From Haplosporangium gracile (taxonomy: Eukaryota; Mortierellomycota; Mortierellomycetes; Mortierellales; Mortierellaceae): a stretch of 54,508 nt of DNA. Both the position numbers and the translations under genes were made by a program. Below are positions 3,318-54,508 of this stretch, one piece after another. A model generated the notes under the pieces. That model worked only from the letters and a program-made list of their open reading frames with translations. It did no database searches and was not told where the DNA came from. Numbering within the stretch: position 1 is the stretch's first letter; the number at the start of each line of letters is the position of its first letter. The stretch lies in the NCBI GenBank assembly GCA_015499985.1, contig JAAAUF010000180.1:1-54508 (forward strand), read 5' to 3'.

Positions 3318-5422
3318 TTATTCCTCCAAAAGACGATAACCACCACGGCCCCTAAACAACTCATCACGGACGGCAGCGGACTTGGATTGCTGAACAGGCA
3401 AGAAATGCTGAGGTCTGAATTTACGCAGTCTCCACCAGTAATGGGTGCAAGAGCTCCACCAAAGAGCAGTAATCTCGTCTTGCTCGTACGACGTGCACTT
3501 TGTGGACCAGACCATGCCCTTCATCTTTTTCTTGACCTCATCGCCAAAGTTCTTGCAGGTCTTAGGGTTATTTGAATGGAGGAGAGATTCTTGTTCATCA
3601 TGCGCGAGATCGCCATGCCTGCGTAGTCGTAAGCCGTCTCTTGATCATGAATAAAACCGAGTTATGTCTACTTTTCTTGTTTGTTTGAGAGTTTTGAGCG
3701 AATGGAAACATTAGGACGGACAATGATTTGTTCTTCACACAATCTGCAGAGAAACATTCGACCAAAGCAAACAAAAAGGGTTGACGTTACCCAAGCACGG
3801 AGTTGGGTCTGAGAATAAAAAATATGTTAGGAGCCTCGGCAGAGGCGATTCCATAGTAGACCTTGGGAGCTTGGCCTCAAGCCCTAAAGAGGTTGCACTT
3901 GTTCTTGCCAATCACGAACCCTTCAACGACGAAATTCTGAACACGGAACCCAGTTGCCAGAATTAAGGCATCCACCTCCTGTTTAGACCCATCGCTCAGT
4001 GTCAAAGTCTTGCCCTTGACATCTGTGATGGTCGCCGTATGAACGTTGACGCTCTTCTTGGACAGGGCCGGGTAATAGTCCGACGAGACCGCAACCCGAC
4101 GACAGGTCAGAGCATAGTCGGGTGTCAATTTCGTACGGAGTTGGTGTCACGGACCTGCCAGTACTGGTGGGCCCAGGCGACGAACATGGCGAAGCGCCGG
4201 GAGAAGATGTCTCGCCATTTGGTGCTGAAGTTGTGGAGGGTGGACTCTCTACTCCAGTAATTCAGTTTGTAGAAGATGAAATGGACAAAAGGGACATACT
4301 TGAAAAGGAACTTCCAGAAGGCACTGATGTTAAAGTTACTGCGGGGCATAACCCATGTCGCCGACCGCTGATAGAACTTGAGTTTCTTGACCTTGTTGAC
4401 AATCGCAGGAACTACTCGGATTGCGCTTATTGGATAAAGGAGTTGTATAGAAGCGAGCAAATTGAGATTAGAATGAGTGGTCCTGGAGCGCAGACGGAAA
4501 AAAAAGGAGTCGGGAGAGAGAAGTTTTTTTTTACCTGGTTCCGCTGCCAATGACAGCGATGCACTTGTTGATGAAGTCATAGTCATGGTTCCACTAGGAG
4601 GCGTGCCACTTGGGTCCCTCAAAGTCATTAAACTGCTTGGGGATCCGAGGGAGGCGAAAAGGCCCTGTTCCAGAAAAGACAATATCGGGATTCATCTGAC
4701 TGGTCTCTCCAGTGTTGTGGTTTGTCCCAGTCAAGGACCCATTGCTGCAGGTCCTCGTGCCTTTCTGCATAGGTGATCTCAGTCCTAAAGCGGATCTTTT
4801 CATAGAGGTTATACTTGTTGGTGACCCGACGTTGGTACTCCCAGATCCCCTGCTGGCCCGCAAATCTTAAAGAGTATGACAGATAAAAAGGAACGAGGGA
4901 ACGAGGTGGTGCGTTCACATGCATGGAAACCAAGAATTAGTAACAGAAAATAGATAGTAAAGGAAAGAGACGAACGGGAACAGGAAGGATCGAAAGCAAG
5001 CAAGAGAAGGGCAGAATAGCTTACGTCTTGCTCCTTTCATAATTGGGCTCAAACGAGAACTGGTAGATGATGGATTGGATATCACAGGCACAACCTGGGT
5101 AGATATTGGACCACCGAGTGCCACCGACTTCTGGTTCCAGCTCGAAGATGGTGTATGTCTTAAGGCTGAGCTGGGTCTGAAGACAAATAGTGGCACACAT
5201 GCCCGAGAACCTATCCAAGAGCGCATTCAGCAGTAGCCAGAGAGTAGACTAGACGTAAAGCAGTTGAGTGGATGAGATGGAATGAAGCAAGCAGATGATG
5301 TTGAGGTTTCTGACCGAGTTAAATTAGACGATAAAATTACGCAAAAGGAAGAAACCTTACCCAGCACCGATGATACAGACGGTTGGCGTCGAGCCGTCCT
5401 TGTAAGTCTTGGTGAGTTCCAT
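3318..5422 (-). pseudogene. Broken tandem copy of the flavin monooxygenase
   Basis: This copy matches the gene at 348-2496 exon by exon. The first two exons (5422-5361 and 5210-5025) have the same lengths, 62 and 186 bases, as in the intact copy. It retains IIGAGFSG, the FEGPKWHA part of the monooxygenase fingerprint and ALILATGF. Lesions visible against the intact copy are: a one-base insertion near 4720-4726, where the intact copy reads DWINHN; a stop at 4594-4596 replacing the Gln before the fingerprint Trp; a one-base deletion near 4140-4147; a stop at 3877-3879 replacing a Trp (TGG to TGA); and a one-base deletion near 3568-3574. Splice sites remain largely canonical, so loss of function looks fairly recent. 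Sequencing error could explain one lesion but hardly five. If transcribed, the product would end soon after the FAD-binding region. Confidence 0.88.
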
Positions 5423-10064: not shown

Positions 10065-10852
10065 ATGGCGTCACCTGTCAATCTGGATGGCTCCCCCAAC
10101 TCCTCCATGACCGGTCAAAACTCTGGCGACGCTCAATTCGACAAAACAGACACCATCGGGATCCTCAAACAGCAGCTGGTCAAGATTGCAAAGAACAAGC
10201 ACAAGAAGCTGTTCAAGGATGTCGAAGGCGTTCTTCAAAGTAAATACCTAGTTTTTGAAATCTCGTTTTTTTTTGTTCGACAGCTGCAGTTTGTGGAAGC
10301 CTTTTATGCCCCACAATATTGATTGATATGCGGACTTGATTTATTGCTTTAGCGTACACCTCTGGAATGGAGTCGGACTTGATATACATCATTAACGAGT
10401 ACACCAACATCAAGAGCGAGTTAGACAAGCTCACCAAGGAGAACATGCACCTTAAGACCGCCAACGCAACTCTGAGCGAACAATTAATTAGCGGCCAGCC
10501 TGATAAACAAGAATCCGCCAGCTCCGTGCAAGACAAGGCTACAATCGAGAACCTGCAGTTGGAACTCGACATCACCACAAAGGAGCTTTCTAGAGCATTG
10601 GAGGACGTCGAAAAGCTCAAGGCACAGCAGTCGCAGATGCAGGTGGCTATCCAGCACAAGGACGTGGTCAACCACCAACTGGCAGCAATCGTCAACACTC
10701 GCCAGATGAATCTCAACCTCAAGCAGAAGGAGAATGCAGAATTGACCGCACAATTAATCGAGACTCGGGCCAAACTCGTGCAGGCAGTGGATTTCGTCGA
10801 CCAATATTACCCTGTTCTGAAGCCGGAGACCATGGAGAGGAAAGCAATTCAC

Positions 10853-10899
<47 letters not shown>

Positions 10900-12607
10900 A
10901 TCCCCGCATTCGGCTGTACTAGTACAAATGCTCAAAGGACCGGTTATGGGACATTTCAGCCAAGGTTCTTCGACATCATCAACCTCGCCTTCACCGCTTC
11001 ATCCAACTCGCATAGCCTTCCAATCACCAGAAAAGACTGCCACTCCAATCCACCAAGGAAAAGTGCCCCAACCTAGTGCTCCATCAATGACAGTATCATC
11101 AACATCTGTCTCATCGACTCGCCAAATGCCTCCAGCTCAACTGGGGATTGTCAGCCCAGCATTGGCCACCCCACTAGTATTTCCTCCTCCAACAGGCAGC
11201 AGTGATGTGTCGACAGCAAGCTTACTCCAGCAAGTCAGGAGCCAAATGGACAAGAATTCCACTCAGAGACAGGGACAGGATCGGAAATTTGAGGATATGA
11301 AGCGACAAGCAGCGATCGACTGGCGGGAAAAGCACCAGCAACAAGTCCTACAGCAGTTTCAATCCGAATCCACCGCGCTAGGCGCACCTCAGTATCCGAG
11401 CCAGCAACCTGTGCCGCCTGTAACTCAACAACATCAGCACCGGCAACAACAGATTCAGCAACAGAAGCTTCAGCAGCAAAATCTTGAGCAGTTTCAACAA
11501 TTAAAGCTCCAACATCTTCAACAACAGCAGCTACAACACCAGCAACGGCACCTTCAAGACCAACAAAAACGACAACAACAACAACAAGAGCAGCAGCGGC
11601 GCCCACAAGAGGAGCCCATCATACGACAGTATCAGGAGCAGCAAAAACTCGGGTCCATAAATCCACCAACGGCACAGGATCGGAATATCGGACCATCTTC
11701 GTCACAACAGCTTATGGGGTCGCAGCACCTACAGTTATGGGCTATCCGGCCAGAACAGGAGCTAACATTACGCAGAACATCGAATGCGGGCGCGGTTCTT
11801 GGAAACACGGTTTGTCCAGCGGCGCAAGTATTACATCCCAGGTCGAGCTTGGCCCCTGCATCCTCAACAACTGTAACAGCGACAACTGATCCGGTTCTAC
11901 TCTTATCATCATCATCAACGTCAACTGGAGGTCCAGCATCCCTCGCAACGCCAGTATCGGCTGAAGGAACAGGATCGAGGACTTCGAATTCAGAGCCAAC
12001 ATCGATGTCAACTAAAACCACTGATCCCACGGGACGCACGGTTAAAAGTGCCACCGCATCACCATCACCGGAGCACGTAGCTGCACTAGCGGCCGACGTG
12101 TTAATAATAGAAGAGGTGGCTGAACCAACGACAACAGAGTCATCGACGACAGTAGCGGTACAGGCACCGCCATCCCCCTCAACAGAAACGCTCTTGTCCA
12201 GCATGATCAGCCATTCACCGTTTGAGCAATCTCCGAGTCTAACACAGGGCTCGACCGGCATCAGGAAGAGAAGCTACGAGTCTGCAATCCTGCTAGAGGA
12301 GACTGAAGATAACGGCGAGAGCACCGACACTGATGTAGGACATGACGACGACGAGGGGTTCTCCCAGTCTACACCTCTCGACTTTGACTTTGACCACGAC
12401 TGGGCTCCACAACTACCGCTCCGGAAGCGGTTGCAAACACCGGCCAGCGAGTTCAAGCATGAGTCTGGGAAATGGTACCTCTCCTCTGTCCAGATTCCAG
12501 TGTTTTCTCCGTTGCACTCCAGTACTGTTGTCGACACCGAGACCCTTCAACGACGCCGAGCTGTCATCAAGATCGACGACGACGACGACGTCGATATTGA
12601 GAACTGA
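10065..12607 (+). CDS. Poly-Q, coiled-coil low-complexity protein
   Basis: Two exons, 10065-10239 and 10353-12607, give 809 residues. The N-terminal ~210 residues look like a long heptad-rich coiled coil (KSELDKLTKENMHLK and similar). Next come a run of about 15 glutamines near residue 225 (a CAG tract at roughly 10855-10896), a Ser/Thr/Pro-rich linker, a second Gln/His-rich helical stretch near residues 380-480, and a disordered Thr/Ser tail ending in an acidic DDDDDVDIEN. No enzymatic domain is recognisable. Coiled coil plus poly-Q suggests a scaffold or transcription co-factor, but that is inference. Upstream in-frame ATGs exist in the same open frame; 10065 is preferred because the sequence before it looks like an untranslated leader. 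Confidence 0.7.
10855..10896 (+). repeat. CAG trinucleotide tract
   Basis: An almost pure CAG run encodes the poly-glutamine segment of the coiled-coil protein. It is expected to vary in length between strains. Confidence 0.9.
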
Positions 12608-49195: not shown

Positions 49196-52100
49196 ATGGC
49201 AAACATCCCTGGTTCCCCTCCTCCCATTCCAACCACAAAACTGCTCACCCAGGACTTCTTTCCTGGAGACCACTCGGCCGCCCATGGATGTCCTCATCTC
49301 AAACCTGTCAAAAGGTCTGGTGAGATCCTCAGCAACTACCAAATCCTTGCTCGCTACAGTCTTCATTTCAAGCATCGTCACGCTCTCGGTATTCTTCCTC
49401 CCAAAAAGCGATCCAAAAGCGGACCTGAGGCAAGTCTATACAATACTCAACAAGGAAGTTTTTTCATTTAGTAAAATTGGATACGGGACGGGACACCTTG
49501 ATTTGTGCAAGAAGAAGCACACGACCATTAGTTTGTTGTCAATTGATATCGGCCTCCCCTGTTTCTGAAATGAAAGCATCAAAGAAAAGAAAAAAAGACG
49601 TTGTTCAGTCACTACGCAGGAACGTTGATCATTACGTTTATTGTGCGTTGGGAGCCCAGCATCAGGAGTTTCAAGGAGGCTGTGTATCACAGGAGAGCAG
49701 GACATTGGCTATCAACCGAACTCTTGACAATAGCGGGCGGCTATTGTTACTAAACAGATCCTTAGGATCTGCAAATCGCCACCGTCCTGGAGACGACGCA
49801 CCATTTTTGTTTACAAGTCGATGGTTAGAGCCATTTTGGTTGCATCATATTAACCCGCTACACTTCACGTTATGTCTATAATAGGACTCTGCAAAGCCAA
49901 TACCACAGCTGCCCATCCCTTCTTGTATGACCTGCGAGACGACCATGGGAAGGATTCACGCCTGTCTCCAGTGTGTTTATGTTGGCTGCTGGAAGGGAGG
50001 CCACTCTCAGAGTCACTCACAGGAAACTGGACACACGCTATGTGAGTCTTGTCTCGTGTCTCAACTTCTTAATTTGTAAACGCATTTTCGTTTCAAGCAC
50101 GCTCATTCAACCTCTATTCATTTTTTTTCAAATGTTCCCGACCAGCCATGGAGATAAGCCGATGTGGCCTCTACTGCGGTCAGTGCAAGGACTTTGTTTA
50201 TGACCGCGATTTTGACGGTATCCACAACAGCGAAGTCCTGAGAAACTCAGAGATCGTCTCCATGGTGCAAGGTACGAAACAGTTGCACATAGATCGTCAG
50301 TGACGATATCAGAATCAGATGAGAGTGCCTGATATTTGTTTGTCATTTTATTACCTTAGAACCAGGTCAAAAGCGGCCTCGATTCTCCAAATGGCATGCA
50401 GGAAACAAAGAGGCCGCGCTAATCAAGGCAGGATCAAAGTTGCAGGCGTGCCAAGGTATAATTATATATCATATTCTGAAATGTCGATTTTGTGCGTAGT
50501 TTGAAGTTGGTCTTGCTCATCATTATGCTGATGCTTCTCTCACATAGGTCTTCGAGGACTTCGCAATATGGGCTCAACATGTTTCATGAACGTGATCCTT
50601 CAGTGCTTCATCCACAACCCATTGTTGCGAGGCTACTTCCTGAGCGATCAACACAGCTCCAAGAGATGCGAAATCAAGAGTGAATGTATGGGCTGTGAAA
50701 TGGATCAGCTCTTTACTCAGGTACGCAAAAAATAATAATTTTTATGTACATGATGTTATTTGGTGGCGTCAAAAAGAGCTGGTTTTGTAGAACATGAGGC
50801 TCATATCAATACCCAATCTTGTATTCGCATTTAGTTTTATTCTGGAGTGAAGACGCCTTATGGTCCTTGCAGCTTTCTTCGCACCATGTGGATGTCTTCT
50901 TCAGACTTGGCAGGATACGCCCAGCAGGATGCACATGAGTTTTTCATCAGCGCCCTTAACCAGATTCACGCGAAATCTCCAAGTAATTCGCCCCTGCCAG
51001 TTGTATTAATTTGAATCAAAACTACAGCTCGTACAATGAGCGGATCCGATCGCTGACACGGCATGCCTTCTCATATGTGTTCTAGCTTCCAAGCTCCATC
51101 ATTGCAGCTGTGTTATCCACAAGACTTTTGCCGGTCTCCTGCAGTCGGACGTGACATGCTTGAACTGTGCCAACGTGACATCCGCGTTTGATCCTATCTT
51201 GGACATTTCTCTTGACCTGCGGCCCACAAAGCGGAGTAAATCGATGAGCAAGGTCCGAGGGTTGAACGACGAACGCCATGACGGACCAAACTCTCTGGCA
51301 GACTGTCTTGACCGGTAAGCTGCCTTACATATGGTTCTTTAATTTTATGTTATTCAGGCTCTCTTCAGCAAGAGCCTTTAGCTAATCGTTGCCGCCAACA
51401 TTCGAATATTAGATACACTCATCCGGAAAAACTGGGTACAAACGAATACAACTGTAGCAAGTGCGGCAAGACAGGACAGGAAGCAACCAAGCAACTATCC
51501 ATGAAGGTCCTTCCCCCTGTTCTGAGCTTCCAGCTAAAGGTACATCGGATGATACCATTCCTACCTGATTGTACACATGTTGAGGGCATTGGGATACGCC
51601 ACTCAACATTATTGTTTGCATTCTCATTTTTTCTAGCGGTTTGAACATTCGATGGGTGCGTCCAAGATTGAGACAAAGATCAAGTTCCCGGCGCAACTGG
51701 ACATGACTCAGTACACGACTTCGACCCGCAAATCAAAAAAATCAAAGTTGCAGAAGATCAACGGCGGATCAGGATCTGAAAACGGATCACCTTCCAACGC
51801 TTCGACTCCTTCGTCCACAACCTCCTCCAACGCGGGTTTGGAGCCTATTCCAACCTACGTTTACAACCTCTTTGCAGTTATCAACCACCAAGGAAAGATG
51901 GATACTGGTCATTACACTGCCTTTGCCAAGCATCGTGGAGAGGTACGCATAGTGTTCTGTTGTCCCGAATTGAAAATCACTCCTCTTTGTTTTGTATTCG
52001 TTTTGGTGGCTATGAGTAGGTTACTGACGAAAATTGCTTATGCCATTGTAGTGGTTCTCCCTGGATGATCACAAGGTGACTTTGGCAACCCAAAAGGAGG

Positions 52101-52288
52101 TCCTTGATAGCAAAGCGTAAGTGTTGGTTCAAACGGGAGCTGATAATATGACAAGAAGTTGTTGCAGTTGTTGGCTTGGACGGAAGGACTAACCCAATTT
52201 TGGAAAATCGGAAATGGTGATTAGGTATATGCTGTTTTATGTCAAGCAAAACTTGGACTATGACTATTCCAGCACCACCAGAGACTAA
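49196..52288 (+). CDS. UBP8: SAGA ubiquitin hydrolase Ubp8 (USP22 family)
   Basis: Eleven exons (49196-49429, 49885-50041, 50146-50271, 50360-50455, 50548-50720, 50835-50982, 51086-51314, 51413-51539, 51637-51942, 52052-52116, 52225-52288) give 574 residues; USP22 is 525 and Ubp8 471. The N-terminal ZnF-UBP domain has GCPHLKP, CMTC, CLQCVYVGC, the His-rich GGHSQSHSQETGH and GLYCGQCKDFVYD; in this family it anchors the enzyme to the SAGA module through Sgf11. The peptidase domain begins with GLRGLRNMGSTCFMNVILQC (catalytic Cys). It has zinc-knuckle pairs (CLNC, CSKC) and ends with TGHYTAFAKH (catalytic His) and EWFSLDD (Asp). The enzyme removes ubiquitin from histone H2B. Intron 1 uses a GC donor (GAG|GCAAGT) and is 455 bases. 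The start codon has a strong Kozak-like context. Confidence 0.95.
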
Positions 52289-52545
52289 GAGACAAAGAAA
52301 AAGGACCCTATATAAAGACTTTGTAGCGTTATTATAATACATTCGCATTGCTCGGCCTCTCTTGCTGACGCTTTTATGCATTTCAGTCATAGGAAAACAT
52401 CGTGTGTGGTCTTTTTTTGATCAGGTTTTTATTTTGAAAGGGGAATAAGTGTACATTGATGTTGGAGAAAAGAAAAACGCAGAAAACAAAGCTGTGGGTG
52501 GGTCTATGCTGAAATGTTGATGATAAAATAGGACCGATGAGGCAT

Positions 52546-53593
52546 TTAAAACCACTTGCGGTTGAAAAAGCTCTCGAAGGGAGACTCAGCCGAGGGGATA
52601 ATCGATCTACAGTAGATATAACAAGAGTTCAGAAAAGACGGTTAGTTTTGGTCCGGGGTTATCTCTAAAAGATTTCGTGAGCTGGATTGAAAACTACACA
52701 GCTCATATCTCTCTGGCTTCCTTTTTGTCTCCCACTCCACTCTTCTGCTACAAGAAAAAAAAAAGCAAGTACCTCGTCGAGGAAGAGTACTCCCTCTTCT
52801 CAGCCTTGAGCCACCTTCCGTTCAAACGACGAGCAGTCTTGGCGTTATTCCTGGTGTTCTGACCACGAACAGGCAAGCCCATAGCATGGCGACGGCCAAC
52901 ATAAGAACCGATGGAACGGTGGTGCATAATATTGGCGCGGATCTGCTTGCGGAGGTCGGACTCGATCTTCATGTCCGAGAGGAGGGTCGAGAGCTGGTTG
53001 ACCTGGGGTTCGGACAGATCGGCAATCTTGCAGGTCTTGTGGATCGAGAGCGTTGCAAGGACTTTCAGGGCGGTCTTTTGACCGATGCCGTAGAACAAAG
53101 GAAGAGCGTATTGCTATGGGTAGAAATTGATCCGGGATAGGATGTGTCGTTTAGATGTCTGTTGTATGAAGGCTTATCGGTAGCAGCCTGATATATAGGT
53201 GTCGTTGGTATAATGTGTGGTCCTGGGTGTTGTGTTTGTTGCGCCTGTGTCTGAAGCTTGTAGTCATAGCTTTGCCCACACGTTGCCCTAAGCCTTTCAA
53301 ATATCATTTGATCGCTCCTCGAACCCTTCCGGACGTCTTTGACAATAATTCACTCGTCTCTGTTTTGACGCTATAAATTCCGTTCCTGAATCCTGGTCCA
53401 AAGCATCCTATGCTTCCTTTACAGGCCTTTCTCCGAAATCCTGATCTCCTCCGTCTGAAAGAAAAGTGTCACGAGGGGTTGCAGAATCCTGAATGGTGAG
53501 CTAGAGGATAGATCCCGGTTGTTGGCTAGTTGGTGAAATGAAACTCACCACCAACTTTTGGTCAGGCAGGTTGACTCCGAGCAAATGCAACAT
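52546..53593 (-). CDS. Mitochondrial ribosomal protein uS13m
   Basis: Three exons, 53593-53549, 53113-52773 and 52606-52546, encode 148 residues. Exon 1 gives MLHLLGVNLPDQKLV. Exon 2 has YGIGQKTALKVLATL (the helix-hairpin-like start of S13), then RSIGSYVGRRHAMGLPVRGQ and NTRNNAKTARRLNG, all hallmarks of bacterial-type S13. Exon 3 supplies the end NRKWF. Compared with cytosolic S18 (about 152) the motifs are of the bacterial/mitochondrial kind, as in yeast Sws2. It contacts the decoding-site RNA and tRNA in the mitochondrial small subunit; import from the cytosol is implied. The first intron is 435 bases. The promoter lies within the 200 bases that also form the 3' end of the Fanzor-like gene. 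Confidence 0.9.
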
Positions 53594-53794
53594 CTTGTCA
53601 AGTTGGTGTGAATATAAAAGAAAGTAGTGAGATCAAAGGGGGAAGGCAGGAATCCCTCAATGCCTGGTTACAGGACAATGGACACCATAATTACGTCACC
53701 GAAGTGTGTAATTGTAGCGCCCCCTATAACCATAACTCGACCCATGTATTTGCTTATACACATATGGATCTAAATATACTAAAATAGGAAATAA
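53594..53794 (-). promoter_or_regulatory. uS13m promoter and Fanzor 3' flank
   Basis: These 200 bases lie between the stop of the Fanzor-like gene and the start of uS13m, both on the minus strand. They contain TTACGTCA at 53691-53698 (TGACGTAA in the minus sense), a perfect CRE/ATF-type site, and a small possible hairpin at 53644-53665 (AGGCA ... TGCCT). In Fanzor elements the guide RNA lies just downstream of the protein gene, so this flank is also where one would look for it. Confidence 0.45.
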
Positions 53795-54508
53795 CTATAC
53801 TGTTGCTGGTTTTTTCGGTTGACTCCCATCCACCCCCTCATCCGTCGCCTTTCGCTTGACCCCCCTCTGCCTACCAGACCCCCCAGGGCGAGGACGCGGC
53901 TTGAAACTGCGTTCGCTCTGCATCCAAGGATAGTTGCCGTCAGTGTCCTTGGGCTGGAGGTAGAGTGGCCGCTGTTGCTCGAGCAAGTGTCCTCGGATGG
54001 CATTACACATGTTGTGGCCGGCCATGATGTCGCGGTGCATGTACTTTTGACACTTTGGACAATAAAGTCGCCGTATGTCAACTTGACCAACGAACTCTCT
54101 ACAAGTCGGGCATTTCTTCGAAGTGTAAAACTCATTGACACCAACGACAATATAGCCAAGAGATCGGACCTGAAAAATAGGGGGAGTAAAGAGCGGAAAG
54201 ATAGTTAATAAGTGTCTCTTTCAGGGTTAGGAACACAGCTGTAATTTACACACTTACTTTTTGGATAAAATACGACTGAAAGGACTCATGCAAAGATGAT
54301 AATCTGATCTTGGAAGAAAACTTCCCAAGACCCACACCAATAACGACCTTGTTGTCCTCGTCCCTCTTGGCCCCTGTCGATCCTCCAACAAGCTGTAAGA
54401 GACGATCGACGATCAATCTATACTCCTCTGCTCGAGCCTTTCTAGCGTTCCACTTGTGCTTCTTCAGGACAACACTGCCATAGAACGAATCGAGATCGAC
54501 CTCCACCT
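53795..54508 (-). CDS. Fanzor/TnpB-like RuvC nuclease, C-terminal part
   Basis: This gene runs off the right edge of the window, so only the last ~207 residues are visible in two exons, 54508-54258 and 54169-53795, with a canonical 88-base intron. Numbering within the fragment: VVIGVGLGKFSSK (about 48-60) is the strand where TnpB has its RuvC-II glutamate, here replaced by Gly. VNEFYTSKK carries a Glu at 96. Zinc-ribbon pairs CPTC (103/106) and CPKC (120/123) follow. MHRDIMAGHNMCNAI contains the RuvC-III Asp at 130 and the TnpB-type DxxAxxN motif. This order, with the Glu moved next to the zinc ribbon, is what has been described for eukaryotic Fanzor nucleases, relatives of TnpB and Cas12 that use an RNA guide. 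The tail is basic (PRPRPGGSGRQRGVKRKA), suggesting a nuclear signal. A plain TnpB-like transposase relic is the alternative. Confidence 0.85.

Follow-up and report, generated by a model that had tools for sequence, protein, structure and literature searches.

The window, that is, the whole stretch of 54,508 nucleotides of Haplosporangium gracile DNA analysed here (contig JAAAUF010000180.1), carries at its 3' end, on the minus strand (54508-53795), two exons and one intron that upon splicing give a product of 207 amino acids without an internal stop codon (Table 1). The contig ends before the RuvC-I part of this gene, its wedge and a possible N-terminal nuclease domain are reached, the window copy consisting of the C-terminal part alone. 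Just past the inferred right end of the element, an intron-containing gene (52748-53640, minus strand) was assigned by eye to a uS13-type ribosomal protein, and the element lies close to the 5' end of this gene. A multi-exon gene at about 49900-52300 on the plus strand was read by eye as a ubiquitin-specific protease (STCFMN.., GHYTAF motifs).

Table 1. Features at the 3' end of the window (positions of the 54,508-nucleotide stretch).
Feature	Position	Strand	Basis or remark
Penultimate exon, part visible in the window	54258..54508	-	open at contig edge; codes helical segment and GVGLG strand
Intron, 88 nt, GT..AG	54170..54257	-	splicing joins the exons as in gene models of relatives
Last exon including stop codon (53797-53795)	53795..54169	-	TNB/RuvC-III part and basic tail
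Relocated catalytic Glu (Ealt) of VNEFYTSKKC, spacing ExxxxxxC	54131..54133	-	codon in window; column conserved in relatives
Four-cysteine zinc ribbon CPTC...CPKC	54050..54112	-	inside PF07282 match, residues 73-136
RuvC-III Asp of MHRDIMAGHNM	54029..54031	-	codon in window; column conserved in relatives
Basic tail, candidate bipartite nuclear localization signal (KRK..KK)	53810..53857	-	assigned by eye
First 3'-UTR hairpin, candidate omega RNA scaffold part	53739..53770	-	folding; comparison with copies
Long terminal hairpin, UUCG loop	53666..53731	-	3' arm ends at inferred right end of element
CGGTGACGTAAT, conserved right-end core	53690..53701	-	35 exact genome matches
First flank bases past element end, candidate guide	53650..53665	-	analogy with SpuFz1

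The spliced product contains VNEFYTSKKCPTC..CPKCQKYMHRDIMAGHNM and a basic tail, KRKATDEGVDGSQPKK, which from its general pattern we take to be a putative nuclear localization signal. The zinc ribbon and MHRDIMAGHNM motif on which the original prediction of a Fanzor-like nuclease was based are indeed encoded in the minus-strand letters, and the Pfam model PF07282 (Cas12f1-like TNB) matches the window protein with an E value of 2.5e-13 and 50.4 bits at a cut-off of 26.3. Taken with the 87 exon-level matches in the same genome (see below), this match is not due to chance. RING, C1 and HypA zinc-finger identities were considered as well and all stayed under the Pfam cut-off. The proposed spliceosomal intron is supported by gene models of relatives, which are spliced at the same place, as in P0037 (between ..YFVQK and ARSLGY..).

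In the first exon, the window copy (C275) differs from C94 at 4, 5 and 27 first, second and third codon positions, respectively (83 codons), and from C1058 at 3, 7 and 13. For the last exon the corresponding differences are 16, 16 and 35 to C94 (114 codons) and 19, 15 and 26 to C1058 (119 codons). Thus, substitutions fall mainly on third positions in the first exon, arguing for constraint at the protein level, with a weaker bias in the last exon. Joining the contig C588 to the window was attempted and rejected, as the first 86 bases of C588 and the last 86 of the window agree at only 80/86 positions, which is far from identity; over the same stretch of the window 77 bases match in C1058, 76 in C94 and 69 in C678. 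At the protein level, 24/28 residues agree between C588 and the window. C588, somewhat closer to the window in DNA than these three, was treated as a further copy, although its bases 1-86 may also represent an imperfectly resolved extension of the window; no contig continues the window with certainty.

Fanzors are a family of eukaryotic RNA-guided nucleases. According to Yoon (2023), their RuvC-II Glu has been relocated to an ExxxxxxC position ahead of the zinc finger with loss of the canonical site, and a RuvC-I DPG motif is near exclusive to them. Bao and Jurka (2013) give the Fanzor1 motif as D-X(125,275)-[TS][TS]XX-[C4 zinc finger]-X(5,50)-RD. The window reads TSKK-C4-RD and matches this motif as far as visible, the D of the motif lying outside the window for this copy. 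In line with the original prediction, Gly occupies the canonical RuvC-II position (GVGLG), as it does in all 41 relatives that have a residue there (gap in 8 of the 49 aligned), and the Glu beside the zinc ribbon, seven residues before its first Cys, is found in 37 of the 41 non-gap relatives, three others having K and one G; the remaining eight of the 49 have a gap. The RuvC-III column holds D in 40 of the 49 and a gap in 9. The RuvC-I Asp is kept in 49/49 aligned relatives. In the 35 relatives with all three catalytic residues, the RuvC-I D and Ealt are 170-264 residues apart, and most of these have TS three residues past Ealt. The residue following the RuvC-I Asp is L in 27, G in 13 and A in 9 of the 49 relatives, and none of them reads DPG; the DLG, DGG and DAG variants possibly mark separate lineages. 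For SpuFz1, D383 and N385 are reported as metal ligands, implying D-x-N, so that DPG is a common hallmark and no strict requirement.

By structure, a long relative is matched best by solved Fanzor1 structures, the identity in these alignments being 14-15%. With single sequences as well as with profiles, no sequence-level match to the Fanzor1 structures was obtained, Fanzor1 being reached by fold alone; besides chance-like rows, these searches of structures returned LaTranC, the mimivirus TnpB-like L79 and weak Cas12-type rows. In the search with a TnpB profile, as originally suggested, the NCBIfam model guided_TnpB matched at the TNB end only, the best of three proteins reaching an E value of 1.5e-9 and 37.6 bits, under the cut-off of 100. 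BFVD returned viral Fanzor-like and XPG-type proteins, listed without aligned ranges and bearing nothing on a fusion. Neither a loss of the RuvC-I Asp nor an unrelated zinc-ribbon protein as best match was encountered among the relatives. Taken together, these results support the assignment of the window gene to a Fanzor1-class family, and with the catalytic residues kept in relatives the Fanzor-like reading holds up to the level of this class. It does not extend to a standard Fanzor, as many long relatives have an additional RAD2/EXO1/FEN1-type domain and the family reads D[L/G/A]G in place of DPG.

In the genome of H. gracile (37.5 Mb, 1157 contigs), in which copies were to be counted, 87 protein matches at the level of exons were obtained with E<=0.001; by a count made by hand they are spread over 54 contigs. 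The relatives comprise 167 distinct proteins listed, from searches giving 76, 14 and 146 matches (120 of the last 146 listed); P0001 among them is a 100% match to the genome copy C129. Named hosts among the matches listed are exclusively Mortierella, Linnemannia, Podila, Haplosporangium, Dissophora, Benniella, Entomortierella, Actinomortierella, Gamsiella and Gryganskiella. Haplosporangium is placed in the Mortierellaceae, and we take the ten genera to form this one fungal family. The apparent restriction to Mortierella-type fungi is as found by a search reaching only proteins that share exact 5-residue words.

In many of the long relatives, an N-terminal domain of the type of the metal-dependent 5' nucleases RAD2/EXO1/FEN1 precedes a Fanzor1 effector that is complete, the two being connected by some 175 linker residues. 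The N-terminal domain has the RAD2/XPG/FEN1/EXO1 fold at about 15% identity. XPG and Fanzor parts are on one gene model in 64 of the 167 relatives listed, and XPG is followed by Fanzor on one strand in at least eight H. gracile contigs (C129, C718, C578, C749, C425, C441, C630, C360). For at least four more (C508, C472, C44, C841), XPG is present and no Fanzor catalytic match is among those listed; these counts are lower bounds, 36 of 166 candidates having been scored. In C508, the XPG match (10913-11632) and a right end (10623-10738), both on the minus strand, are separated by less than 200 bases, leaving no room for a Fanzor part, and this copy looks like an internal-deletion derivative. The metal-binding acids of FEN1 we take to be numbered D34, D86, E158, E160, D179, D181 and D233. 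Among 38 relatives that are 31-49% identical to P0030, the corresponding positions hold Asp in 26/28 (D34-like, non-gap) and 34/34 (D86-like, non-gap), Glu in 38/38 (E158-like), Asp instead of E160 in 38/38, and Asp in 34/38 (D179-like), 38/38 (D181-like) and 36/37 (D233-like, non-gap). In C129 and C749, the XPG exons are open and by eye contain all seven acids. Four of the six XPG-bearing H. gracile copies read are interrupted, by stops in C718 and C578 and by stops or frame shifts in C425 and C441.

We infer that the window copy has, or had, this N-terminal nuclease domain. The strongest alternative, to which we assign a little less than an even chance, is that what the window holds is a 5'-truncated relic in decay that lacks the second nuclease, fusions being confined to some members of the family. 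No XPG match was obtained with seven N-terminal queries in any of the five close H. gracile copies that have at least 1.8 kb of upstream DNA (C1058, C588, C678, C453, C618). Of the 20 copies fetched in total, 6 showed XPG and 7 that have upstream DNA did not; the other 7, which lie at contig edges, could not be judged. The window protein's four nearest relatives among those listed are divided as well: P0051 (81% identity, partial) and P0039 (75%) are without XPG, whereas P0037 (83.5%) and P0030 (69%) have it. Given the five close copies and this split, the window copy may lack the domain. Decay is seen in related copies, the last exon of C1058 containing stops and C94 (L042, 2157-2498) having lost the stretch with the RuvC-III Asp, in an open frame with both zinc knuckles kept. 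On the other hand, the 207 codons of the window are open with intact motifs, and the codon-position bias of the first exon indicates constraint. Furthermore, the right end of the window is 98% identical over 53-64 nt to those of C942, C1046 and C26, indicating that the subfamily of the window has moved recently.

The right end was analysed by comparison of copies and by folding. Downstream of the stop codon, a conserved tract of the type ..CGGTGACGTAATTATGGCGCCCATTGTCC.. is present in 16 of the 20 copies compared (the window and 19 others with fetched 3' part) and was not found in C453, C217, C880 and C425. This tract is followed by unique flank. C487, C555, C372, C95 and C92 share with C507 a right end that shows no difference over 54-88 nt, their flanks being unrelated. 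The 12-mer CGGTGACGTAAT has 35 exact matches genome-wide as compared to 4 for the reversed control pattern, and at least one of the 35 (C272), which was set aside, is unlike an element end. The contigs C26, C67, C92, C95, C372, C555 and C714 start or stop within the right-end motif, 17-20 nt into it. A collapse of near-identical copies during assembly would produce this, and the youngest copies may thus be missing from the assembly. C441 (L047) contains two right-end-like tails in tandem at oriented position about 5318-5380, which suggests that one element end was inserted beside another.

The last 125 nt of the element in the window fold with -38.6 kcal/mol (z -3.66), and none of 200 shuffles was as stable. 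For 24 right ends, end points were picked by eye and the sequences folded. In 18 of them, pairing reaches the end or stops no more than about two bases before it; C482, C1022, C718 and C355 fall 4-6 bases short, and C630 and C652 are without the long hairpin. Base pairs were then counted in two alignments covering 17 of the 24 ends, each structure being taken from one member, which favours the unslid register. In the window-type alignment (8 sequences), 74.6% of cells are paired as compared to 31-50% after sliding; its covariation score was reached by 1/500 shuffles and its number of pairs changed on both sides by 26/500. In the second alignment (9 sequences), the corresponding values are 79.9% paired as compared to 33-53%, 14/500 and 8/500. 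At the level of sequence comparison, covariation thus lends moderate support to the right-end hairpin. The stem of the first hairpin changes in sequence in C678, C457 and C618 and by eye still pairs there, less well in C705. A search of Rfam with 53400-54508 returned nothing at E<=1.

In PMC10432273, the omega RNA of SpuFz1 from S. punctatus is described as a 75-nt scaffold between the stop codon and the right-end repeat plus a guide of 14-15 nt from the flank. By analogy, the layout of right-end hairpin and flank in the window fits such an RNA and constitutes a candidate guide-RNA scaffold. That the hairpin is instead a DNA signal for transposition, comparable to Helitron-like or IS200-like ends, and no RNA scaffold seems unlikely to us. 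In its favour, the 3' arm of the hairpin at the same time forms an inverted repeat with at least one left end: when left ends were searched for with an inverted copy of the right end, one clear case (C618) was obtained next to weak ones in C880 and C441. Neither a target duplication nor a transposase superfamily was assigned from this search. Palindromic ends are, moreover, common in mobile DNA. Against a signal of this type speak the position and size of the hairpin, which match the SpuFz1 omega RNA, and the additional upstream hairpin that by eye pairs in spite of sequence change. The right-end hairpin may also be both DNA signal and RNA scaffold.

What is observed comprises the sequence and its homology, the fold, the catalytic residues kept by relatives, the spread in many copies and the structure of the right end. 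On this basis we regard it as probable that the window contains the 3' part of a mobile-element Fanzor1-class gene, that many long family members are fusions of an XPG-type nuclease with Fanzor1, and that RNA from the right end guides cutting. The omega RNA would be the right-end transcript, consisting of 3' UTR, terminal hairpin and first flank bases, and the Fanzor part directed by it would cut flank-matching DNA, that is, empty sites after excision or in a homologue without the element. The fused EXO1/FEN1-like domain might trim the break at its 5' ends or flaps, or else mature the guide RNA, and end processing would favour repair that copies the element back. The guided cutting of flank-matching sites is predicted from what is known of the family; the processing of break or RNA by the fused nuclease we infer. 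Only as a tentative proposal, to which we lean somewhat less than not, can it be put forward that transposons of the Mortierellaceae encode a single-chain 'cut and resect' enzyme in which a Fanzor and an active EXO1/FEN1-type 5' nuclease act together in RNA-guided homing.

The N-terminal domain could also be a passenger or structural module, the protein being an ordinary Fanzor1 with an XPG-like part that merely binds DNA or RNA. EXO1/FEN1 folds also bind DNA, Pfam XPG_I exceeds its curated cut-off in just 2 of 7 relatives scanned, and 4 of the 38 sequences lack Asp at the D179-like position. We nevertheless consider a passenger role rather improbable, as the FEN1-type acids are otherwise kept, including those that are invariant or nearly so at the E158-, E160-, D181- and D233-like positions. 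That the fusion is an annotation artefact of adjacent genes, for which an NCBI model with an unrelated domain (at least P0026, prefoldin PF02996) and the dependence of the junction on intron-containing gene models without cDNA could be cited, is highly improbable in view of the same order on one strand in the H. gracile contigs, the single models in the listed proteins and the linker-bearing segment of C129, which runs open into the Fanzor N-terminal part.

With the Fanzor1 proteins SpuFz1, PpFz1 and GtFz1 the Mortierellaceae family shares the Fanzor1 fold and the layout of Ealt, zinc ribbon and RD. It differs in the extra N-terminal nuclease, in the RuvC-I variants and in the length of its long members, 1,100-1,400 amino acids, whereas Fanzor1 proteins mostly have 600-700 according to PMC11423790. 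The RuvC-TNB core is common to TnpB of IS200/IS605 and Cas12f; in contrast to these, the present family is eukaryotic and intron-containing and has Gly for the canonical RuvC-II Glu. Unlike the RAD2/XPG, EXO1 and FEN1 5' nucleases, the Mortierellaceae domain is fused to a putative RNA-guided nuclease on a mobile element. Fanzor1 elements of the MuDR type from Rhizopus, Phycomyces and Mucor likewise represent Fanzor1 in early-diverging fungi; as far as consulted, their account (Bao and Jurka, 2013) describes no second nuclease. In the open-licence literature we found no earlier fusion of a Fanzor or TnpB with XPG, FEN1 or an exonuclease and no paper that names a Fanzor together with Mortierella or Mucoromycota, a prior mention being possible.

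The significance of these results rests on the family and less on the fragment in the window. The right-end hairpins are candidate guide-RNA scaffolds, for which the flank would be the predicted target. The fusion is a natural counterpart of engineered nuclease-exonuclease fusions and suggests that steps after the guided cut matter to the element. A Fanzor fused to a 5' nuclease of the DNA-repair type, with its acids kept across many species, is a direct clue to why transposons keep Fanzors.
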